Shown here: one piece after another, positions 42,317 through 44,900 of the stretch
Layout of the letters: every line of letters starts with the position of its first letter
Position numbering within the stretch: the stretch's first letter is position 1
Assembly (NCBI GenBank): GCA_016214855.1
Contig: JACRMT010000004.1
Span: forward strand, 62,001-126,000
DNA: 64,000 nt
From: Nitrospirota bacterium
GTDB lineage: Bacteria; Nitrospirota; Thermodesulfovibrionia; Thermodesulfovibrionales; UBA6898
Direction of reading: 5' to 3'
Position numbers and translations under genes: made by a program
Notes under the pieces: model-generated
Told to the model about the DNA's origin: nothing
The model's input: only the letters and a program-made list of their open reading frames with translations
Database searches by the model: none

Positions 42317-42441
42317 CAATAAGATTCTTAACTAAATACATAAGAACATATGATTATTCTAATTTGATGATAGGCTGTCCGCCTCTGCTCACCGAAAACC
42401 GGCTGGTCTTCTATCTGATGTGAGTCCTGCGGGGAGGTGTA

Positions 42442-42450
42442 TGGTAAAAT
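42442..42450 (+). promoter_or_regulatory. Extended -10 box of the amidohydrolase gene
   Basis: TGGTAAAAT ends 8 bases before ATG 42459, with no good -35. It supports 42459 rather than upstream in-frame starts at 42420 or 42441. Confidence 0.45.
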
Positions 42451-42458
42451 GTTGCGCA

Positions 42459-43517
42459 ATGCATAATGAAAAAAAGAAAATGACGTATCGGGCACAGATC
42501 ATAGGAAGTGCTGAAAATGATCTTGTGCTGCCGCAGTTCCTTGGCATTGAACATGGCATAATCCGGTCCCTTTCCAGCCAGAGCCCGAACGATCCGGAGC
42601 AGGAGATCGTTGATCTCGGGCAGCTCGTAATAGCACCGCTTTTTTGCGATCATCACCTTCATTTTCCCGGAAATTCCGCGTTAAAGGCCGATGACGCAGG
42701 ACGCCGGATTCTCTGCCATGGCATAGGGAGAGTATTTGAAGGAGGTGATAAGGCCGGCCGAGGGCTGACGGTCAGAGATGCACTGAAGGGCAGACTGCAG
42801 ATAAGGGCAGCCGGCTATGCGCTATTCAGGAAGGGAGGGTACGGCACTGCCATCGGGCAGGGTGTTGAAGATGCGGAGGACGCTTTAAGAAGGATCGACG
42901 AGCTTCAGTCCCTGTCAGTTGATTATATAAAGATCATTCATTCCGGTATTTACGAGCCTGAGTCAGACCTGATCACGGCTGGCGGCTTTGGTACGGCAGA
43001 GCTGGGGCGCATTGTGGACCATGCAAGGAAGAGAGGCCTTGATGTCTATTGTCATGTGAATGGTGACAAGGAGGTTAAGGAGGCGGTTGACGCAGGCGTA
43101 ACCGCTGTTATCCATGGCCTGCGCGTAAGCGATGCAACGCTGTCAGCCATGGCTGCCAACAACGTAGCATTCATACCTACCGTGCATGCATTTCATGGCC
43201 TGCATGCCATTGCCAGGTCCGATACCGCAAGGCAGAACATAGAGAGGTCGGTCAACGGGCATCTGTCTGCAGTCAGCAAGGCCTATGAACTTGGCGTGAG
43301 GATCCTGCCGGGAAGCGATGCCGGCCCCAGTTTTTTACCCTACGGCAGTTCGTATCTGGCGGAGCTTGGCCTCCTTGAGAAGGCTGGCATCCCGTATCCA
43401 AATCTCATTCGGGCTGCTTCCATGACTGCTCTGCAGGTGAATGCCTCAGCGGATTTTCTGGTCCTTGATGGTCTGTCGGTAACCCGGGTCGTGATGGCCG
43501 GGCAGGTGGTATACTGA
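42459..43517 (+). CDS. Amidohydrolase-superfamily metal-dependent hydrolase
   Basis: About 352 residues. The metal-binding HxH is in CDHHLHFPG; later ligands are likely H in YCHVNGDKEV, H in AVIHGLRV and D in LPGSDAGPSF. The C-terminal strand (ADFLVLDGLSVTRVVMAGQVVY) is the beta-sandwich end typical of imidazolonepropionase/prolidase-like amidohydrolases. Substrate is unknown. The start is uncertain between 42459 and 42480. Confidence 0.82.
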   Translation: MHNEKKKMTYRAQIIGSAENDLVLPQFLGIEHGIIRSLSSQSPNDPEQEIVDLGQLVIAPLFCDHHLHFPGNSALKADDAGRRILCHGIGRVFEGGDKAGRGLTVRDALKGRLQIRAAGYALFRKGGYGTAIGQGVEDAEDALRRIDELQSLSVDYIKIIHSGIYEPESDLITAGGFGTAELGRIVDHARKRGLDVYCHVNGDKEVKEAVDAGVTAVIHGLRVSDATLSAMAANNVAFIPTVHAFHGLHAIARSDTARQNIERSVNGHLSAVSKAYELGVRILPGSDAGPSFLPYGSSYLAELGLLEKAGIPYPNLIRAASMTALQVNASADFLVLDGLSVTRVVMAGQVVY

Positions 43518-43601: not shown

Positions 43602-43997
43602 ATGAGGACCATATCACTATTTTTGTTGGGACTGCTGATGCTTGTCTCTTCGGCTGCAGCTGCCGAGACCTTCAAAACAGTAACAGCGGACGAGCTGAAA
43701 AAGATGATCGACAGCGGAAAACAGATCACTGTTGTGGACACCCGCACAGAGGAAGAATTCAGGCAGGGTCACCTGCCAAAGGCAGTGAATATCCCGCCTG
43801 AAAAGGTGAATAACATCGGAGATCTTCTCCCGAAGGCCAAGAACAGGCCTGTTGTTTTCTATTGCAGGGGCGTTGGCTGAGGTCTTTCAAAGCAGGCTGC
43901 GGTCGCAGCCGAAAAGGCGGGATACACAGACATACAGATCTTTCAGGCCGGTTATCCCGAGTGGACTGCAAAAGGGTATAAGACTGTAACTAAATAA
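43602..43997 (+). CDS. Periplasmic rhodanese-like selenoprotein (in-frame UGA as Sec93)
   Basis: Reading the TGA at 43878-43880 as selenocysteine gives a 131-residue single-domain rhodanese. It has a signal peptide (about 1-21, ending AAAA), the conserved VVDTRTEEEFRQGHLPKAVNIP segment, and the active loop C88-R-G-V-G-U93. After UGA the frame continues GLSKQAAVAAEKAGY and ends in FQAGYPEWTAKGY, the normal rhodanese C-terminus, to TAA at 43995. Ordinary homologues have cysteine at position 93 (CX4C). A hairpin with a GGUC loop lies 14 bases after UGA. Standard calling would truncate the gene at 92 residues. GGGAGG precedes the ATG. Confidence 0.85.
43895..43910 (+). promoter_or_regulatory. Candidate bacterial SECIS hairpin 1
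   Basis: GGCTGC and GCAGCC form a 6-bp GC stem closing a GGTC loop, starting 14 bases after the UGA. A guanine at the loop start and this distance fit bacterial SECIS elements; the E. coli fdhF loop also contains GGUC. Confidence 0.65.
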
Positions 43998-44016: not shown

Positions 44017-44382
44017 ATGCGGCGTATTGTTATCCTGTTCTCAGTATTACTTCTGTTCTGCGCGTCTGCTTATGCAGGGGAGAGAAGCGCGTCCGGGTCT
44101 GTTGTCCTTGCCGAACGGCAGGCAGCGGATGTCCGGGTCGTCATGTACATGACAAGCTGGTGACCCTACTGCAGAAAGGCCCGTGAGGACCTTAAGAGAC
44201 TTGGTGTACAGCTGGTTGAATACGATATTGAAAAAGATGAAACAAAGAAAAAGGAAATGAAGAAGCTGACCGGCGGCTCGACCATGGTTCCGGTCATCGA
44301 TATAGAGGGGATCGTCATCAGGGGCTATGAGCCTGACGAGATCAGGCATGCTGTCGAGAAGACGAGGAAAGGCCCGAGATAA
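44017..44382 (+). CDS. Periplasmic glutaredoxin-like selenoprotein (UPYC, Sec49)
   Basis: With TGA at 44161-44163 read as selenocysteine, ATG 44017 to TAA 44380 encodes 121 residues. A signal peptide (about 1-20, ending AYA) is followed by a thioredoxin fold: VRVVMYMTSW then U49-P-Y-C52, the glutaredoxin CPYC site with Sec in place of the first cysteine. Later come VEYDIEKDE, the cis-proline region STMVPVIDIEG and IRGYEPDEIRHAV, all normal glutaredoxin features. GGGAG lies 6 bases before the ATG. The gene starts 19 bases after the rhodanese and ends 2 bases before the TlpA-like gene. Standard calling misses it entirely. Confidence 0.87.
44176..44193 (+). promoter_or_regulatory. Candidate bacterial SECIS hairpin 2
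   Basis: AAGG/CCTT and CC/GG pair with one C-A mismatch, closing a GTGA loop, starting 12 bases after the UGA. Weaker than hairpin 1 but correctly placed, with a leading loop G. Confidence 0.45.
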
Positions 44383-44384
44383 CA

Positions 44385-44900
44385 ATGCCGAGGTTCTGCT
44401 CTGTCCTCCTTCTTCTCATCTGCCCGGTTTTGTGTTTCCCTGTCAGGGCCTTTTCCGTCACCCGGGGAGAAGCAGCTCCTGCATTTGCGCTTTCCGATCT
44501 TCAGGGCATGAAGCACACACTTTCCGATTATACCGGCAAGGTTGTCTTGATCAACTTCTGGGCAAGCTGGTGCGGAGAATGCATTACCGAGATGCCGTCG
44601 CTGAACACGGTACATACGCAGTTCAGCGACAGGGGGCTTGCGGTGCTCGGCGTGACCGTTGACAGAATCACTGAAGATGCGCGCGCTGCGGCAAAGAAAG
44701 CCCGTATTGCCTTTCCGATACTCGTTGATGCGAGGGGCGAGGTCTTTATCAGAAAATATGCGGTGATCGGTCTTCCGACAACGATCGTTCTGGACAGAAA
44801 GGGCGTTATACGGGAGATCCTCGTCGGTTCTCAGGATTTTCAGGAAAAAAAGATCAGGGACATGCTAGTTTCCTTACTGAATGAAAGAACTGCCCCTTAA
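44385..44900 (+). CDS. TlpA-like exported thioredoxin
   Basis: A 171-residue thioredoxin-fold protein with an N-terminal signal or anchor (about 1-24). The redox site is WASWCGECI (CxxC) after VVLINFW, and the cis-proline is in IGLPTTIVLD, typical of TlpA/ResA proteins. It starts 2 bases after the selenoglutaredoxin gene, so the three proteins are made together and exported. A role as electron donor or partner to the two upstream proteins is inference. Confidence 0.92.
   Translation: MPRFCSVLLLLICPVLCFPVRAFSVTRGEAAPAFALSDLQGMKHTLSDYTGKVVLINFWASWCGECITEMPSLNTVHTQFSDRGLAVLGVTVDRITEDARAAAKKARIAFPILVDARGEVFIRKYAVIGLPTTIVLDRKGVIREILVGSQDFQEKKIRDMLVSLLNERTAP

Follow-up and report, generated by a model that had tools for sequence, protein, structure and literature searches.

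Several bacterial proteins are known in which selenocysteine (Sec) takes the place of an active-site cysteine in a glutaredoxin or rhodanese domain. The native selenoprotein glutaredoxin cGrx1 of Clostridium oremlandii (PDB 7c10 and 7c12), for which glutathione is the described reductant, is the proposed reductant of selenoprotein MsrA (PMC7642778), and bacterial Sec glutaredoxins with a PF00462 domain and a UxxC motif are listed for Geobacter, Alkaliphilus and Moorella (PMC1794560, PMC13188914). A 2026 review includes the UxxC Sec glutaredoxin together with rhodanese-like forms 1–5 and TsoB, which carries a UxxxxU motif, and it lists the rhodanese selenoproteins as predicted only (PMC13188914). 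Sec glutaredoxins and Sec rhodaneses are each already known, and the glutaredoxin-like (Grx-like) protein described here falls under the UxxC Sec glutaredoxin. What looks new is its pairing with a rhodanese: in a partial coverage of the literature, no account of an exported operon with both came to light, nor anything specific on periplasmic rhodanese selenoproteins, and this novelty is provisional. Ordinary reading of open reading frames cuts such genes at the TGA, so that both proteins can easily be overlooked or shortened.

The locus was found in the window, a 64,000-nucleotide stretch of contig C4 in a 3.3 Mb draft Nitrospirota genome of 23 contigs that is rated 100% complete. Judged from its sequence, the gene at 44017..44382 (+) almost certainly encodes a selenoprotein with a UPYC site, in which the UGA at codon 49 (44161..44163, +) is recoded as Sec. 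The gene begins with an ATG at 44017, preceded by AAAAGGGAGACGACCATG, a good ribosome site with a Shine-Dalgarno-like GGGAG just 5' of the ATG, and ends with a TAA at 44380–44382, only 2 bases before the ATG of the next gene at 44385; the TGA at codon 49 is the sole interruption of the frame. An earlier note on this DNA had described this start and this spacing correctly. It had also stated that no conventional frame covers the gene, which holds for the sense strand, where no open reading frame spans 44017–44382, but not for the antisense strand, where a 112-residue frame beginning with TTG (44047–44385, −) overlaps the same stretch.

When TGA is translated as U, the product is the complete protein of glutaredoxin fold that the note had anticipated. 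It has 121 residues and matches PF00462 with 60.7 bits if C is written for U (cut-off 22.9), and the alignment to the same domain runs across the stop with 51.8 bits and an E value of 3e-13. UPYC occupies residues 49–52, placing the C/UxxC where helix 1 begins (residues 50–61 of the structure model); the model has a pLDDT of 90–98 over the domain (block means), and its best fold matches in the PDB are glutaredoxins. The N-terminus (44017..44076, +) reads as signal-peptide-like, MRRIVILFSVLLLFCASAYA followed by GE, with a low-confidence helix at residues 3–21 in the model, and the protein is probably exported. The shape of the frame was also considered as evidence for a selenoprotein and discarded. 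Frames of similar dimensions with just one TGA inside number nine in the window, so that shape proves nothing and the evidence beyond chance is homology: among these nine, a Pfam domain runs across the TGA only in the Grx-like frame, and no domain crosses it in the other eight.

Of the described proteins, cGrx1 is the best PDB sequence match of the Grx-like protein (E 9.5e-8) and also one of its top fold matches, and the two have in common the glutaredoxin fold, the U(C)PxC site and Sec as the attacking residue. What separates the Grx-like protein from cGrx1 is its signal-peptide-like N-terminus and its rhodanese neighbour, and whereas cGrx1 is described with glutathione as its reductant, a search for glutathione synthetase (PF02955) gave no match in the source genome, complete as it is rated. 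The listed bacterial Sec glutaredoxins share its domain and the position of its Sec, but its operon partner sets it apart from them, as its predicted export may do. In the UXX-star family (NF041212), too, the fold is glutaredoxin-like and Sec occupies the N-terminal position of the active site; the Grx-like protein differs in retaining the second Cys, and it scores below the cut-off of that model (61.5 versus 66). Its best NCBIfam match, the YruB-type glutaredoxin model TIGR02196, is likewise below cut-off (69.0 versus 88.55). Since no glutathione synthetase was found and the YruB match falls short, a glutathione-dependent role is doubtful and the name 'glutaredoxin' may be a misnomer. The earlier note had spoken of an exported glutaredoxin selenoprotein; the selenoprotein, the glutaredoxin fold and the signal-peptide-like N-terminus all stand, and it is the glutathione-dependent role that is in doubt.

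Directly upstream, and absent from the earlier note, is a second selenoprotein gene (43602..43997, +), which encodes a single-domain rhodanese (PF00581, 76.8 bits) with the loop YCRGVGUGLS. Its frame is crossed by one TGA only, at codon 93 (43878..43880, +), and the signal peptide that its N-terminus appears to bear suggests that this protein, too, is probably exported. The TGA is conserved in relatives from several families, while others, including L071, L072 and L075, have Cys codons at the position. Because the rhodanese gene is also crossed by a TGA with the same contrast between Sec and Cys, the Grx-like gene is one half of a pair. The rhodanese keeps Cys88 and has Sec93 at the second position. 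Its UxxS pattern fits the motif listed for rhodanese form 1 (PMC13188914), and its C/UxxxxU spacing matches the UxxxxU of TsoB. In contrast to TsoB, however, only the second position is Sec, Cys88 being kept, and the protein is a single domain without the DsbD part; its best NCBIfam match is the TsoB rhodanese/DsbD fusion model NF045694, at 71.5 against a cut-off of 805.

The gene that follows the pair (44385..44900, +) encodes a TlpA/ResA-like thiol-disulfide oxidoreductase with the motif WASWCGEC (PF00578, 100.8 bits; below cut-off for the ResA model), and upstream of the pair lies an amidohydrolase-like gene (42420..43517, +; PF01979, 35.9 bits), which relatives also keep there. In five of the six sampled genomes of the genus (G000, G388, G215, G276 and G280) the Sec-containing rhodanese and Grx-like genes lie side by side, and the TlpA-like gene comes after the pair in three of the sampled genus genomes, occupying the same place in G388 and G215. 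We infer that the rhodanese, Grx-like and TlpA/ResA-like genes are co-transcribed and likely form an operon; a promoter and terminator scan gave no convincing operon boundary.

The two selenoproteins may work together. They need not be partners, however, as the genes lie apart in the loci examined from other families, where adjacency was looked for and not found, and in G346 the rhodanese gene occurs alone, with no Grx-like gene. Both observations are consistent with a different explanation, in which the shared operon reflects general thiol repair in the envelope and the Grx-like protein reduces other exported disulfides or persulfides with no special link to the rhodanese; Cys-form relatives of the Grx-like protein are also widespread, as such an explanation would have it. 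It accounts less well for adjacency in five of six genomes whose Grx-like proteins are 57–75% identical, or for Sec being kept in both genes in every one of the five paired genomes, and we regard general thiol repair as a serious possibility that falls somewhat short of an even chance.

If the two proteins are partners, the most likely mechanism can be outlined. Cys88 of the rhodanese would take sulfane sulfur or an oxidised substrate, and Sec93 would resolve the Cys88 adduct as a Cys-Sec bond. The selenol of the Grx-like protein could then open the Cys88-Sec93 bond of the rhodanese and afterwards close its own bond with Cys52. The TlpA-like protein would re-reduce the Grx-like protein and would itself be fed by a CcdA/DsbD-type membrane carrier. 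The source genome has two DsbD/CcdA-type genes and, as noted, the search there for a glutathione synthetase domain gave no match, so a membrane carrier and TlpA-like chain is favoured over glutathione. The motifs and the operon suggest this electron path, which we consider quite possible, if not yet probable. More tentative still is the proposal that the Sec rhodanese (Cys88/Sec93) and the Sec Grx-like reductase, both using Sec, make up a dedicated exported selenium relay in the cell envelope that is free of glutathione. Should the pair function in this way, it would provide a second match of a Sec reductase with a Sec enzyme after cGrx1/MsrA, this time outside the cytoplasm, and it would offer a concrete route to test the function of a rhodanese selenoprotein.

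The assignment of Sec to codon 49 draws on comparison with relatives. The aligned codon is TGA in 9 Nitrospirota genomes and Cys (TGC or TGT) in the other 24 aligned relatives, so that Sec and Cys are the only residues there in all 33 and no non-redox residue occurs, in agreement with the earlier note's reading of U as a replacement of the first active cysteine. W48, C/U49, C52, P92 and G103 are invariant in the 33-sequence alignment; Pro92, for which cis geometry is predicted, is the normal cis-proline that the note had recognised. Homology to the relatives continues past the TGA at 57–75% identity. Between the source genome and two congeners, dN after the TGA is ~0.10–0.11 and dS ~1.0 (dN/dS ~0.1), and the downstream part is therefore under strong constraint; in the same comparison dN is higher before the TGA, at 0.26–0.27. 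In a tree built without column 49 the Grx-like protein lies within an all-Sec clade of its own genus, and a minimum of three changes between the Sec and Cys forms is needed. Its closest named relative is from a Nitrospirae groundwater MAG, and a search of genomes gave its nearest matches within the same genus.

The Sec machinery that the earlier note's reading depends on is all present in the source genome: SelB (375 bits), SelA adjoining selB, SelD, and a tRNA-Sec with anticodon TCA. SelD is itself a Sec form (GCAGU; L089, contig C2) and adjoins a NifS-like cysteine desulfurase frame. Because SelB was found in 37 of the 41 relatives searched, its presence does not discriminate between Sec and Cys forms; searches for SelB in the draft genome G215 and for tRNA-Sec in G276 gave nothing over the cut-off. 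Near-cognate suppression or a reassigned code, instead of Sec insertion, is a highly improbable explanation for reading through the UGA. TGA is the commonest stop among the long frames (34 of 66) and ends the upstream amidohydrolase-like gene, showing that the code is not reassigned, and against either possibility stand the full Sec machinery and the alternation of relatives with Cys, not with Trp or Arg. A true stop in a decayed Cys gene, or a sequencing error, might be suspected from a TGA one base from TGC or TGT in a draft of 23 contigs, but this is already contradicted by the same TGA in nine genomes and has virtually no chance of being correct given the second TGA in the neighbouring rhodanese gene, the strong purifying selection downstream and a frame with no other break.

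Hairpins resembling SECIS elements follow the TGA in both genes, and recoding of the UGA at 44161 would be directed by SelB together with such an element. That of the Grx-like gene, AAGG-C-CC-GUGA-GG-A-CCUU (44176..44193, +), begins 12 bases after the TGA, with its loop starting 19 bases after; it has the SECIS arrangement of a hairpin just after the TGA with a G in the loop, though as a plain fold it has little stability (z +1.3 over the 55 bases from the TGA). Sec relatives keep on average 5.38 of the 6 pairs, against 3.89 expected under synonymous recoding of the same peptide, and Cys relatives keep 3.42 against 3.36, figures to be read as a contrast and not as a probability because the sequences are related. 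In L046, base substitutions (CC/GG to GC/GC) leave the pairing intact around a GGUC loop, and L032 and L033, of the same genus, are exceptions with only 4 of 6 pairs. The rhodanese hairpin, GGCUGC-GGUC-GCAGCC (43895..43910, +), which follows the TGA at 43878, gives a similar contrast, with 5.71 of 6 pairs in Sec relatives (4.57 expected under synonymous recoding) and 3.00 in Cys relatives (2.87 expected); the excess per sequence is modest, with p ~0.15 each. An Rfam search at gathering thresholds did not find SECIS in the window. One Cys form of the Grx-like gene, L043 (G053), keeps all 6 of the SECIS-like pairs and is possibly a recent change from Sec to Cys.

Elsewhere in the source genome there are further candidates, bringing the rhodanese selenoprotein candidates to at least four, of three types. 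The frame at 364–1719 of L093 (contig C23) encodes 451 residues, includes three rhodanese-like stretches and is crossed in frame by one TGA, and its loop, YCGGVTURLS, has the same CxxxxU pattern as the rhodanese of the window. Two other rhodanese genes with an in-frame TGA occur at L115 (contig C18) and L118 (contig C8); in one, Sec replaces the catalytic Cys (AYUGSGVRS), and the other is of the LYCAU type (LYCAUKNQ). A small glutaredoxin-like selenoprotein candidate with a UHDC motif and without a signal peptide is encoded at 1489–1743 of L003 (contig C6).
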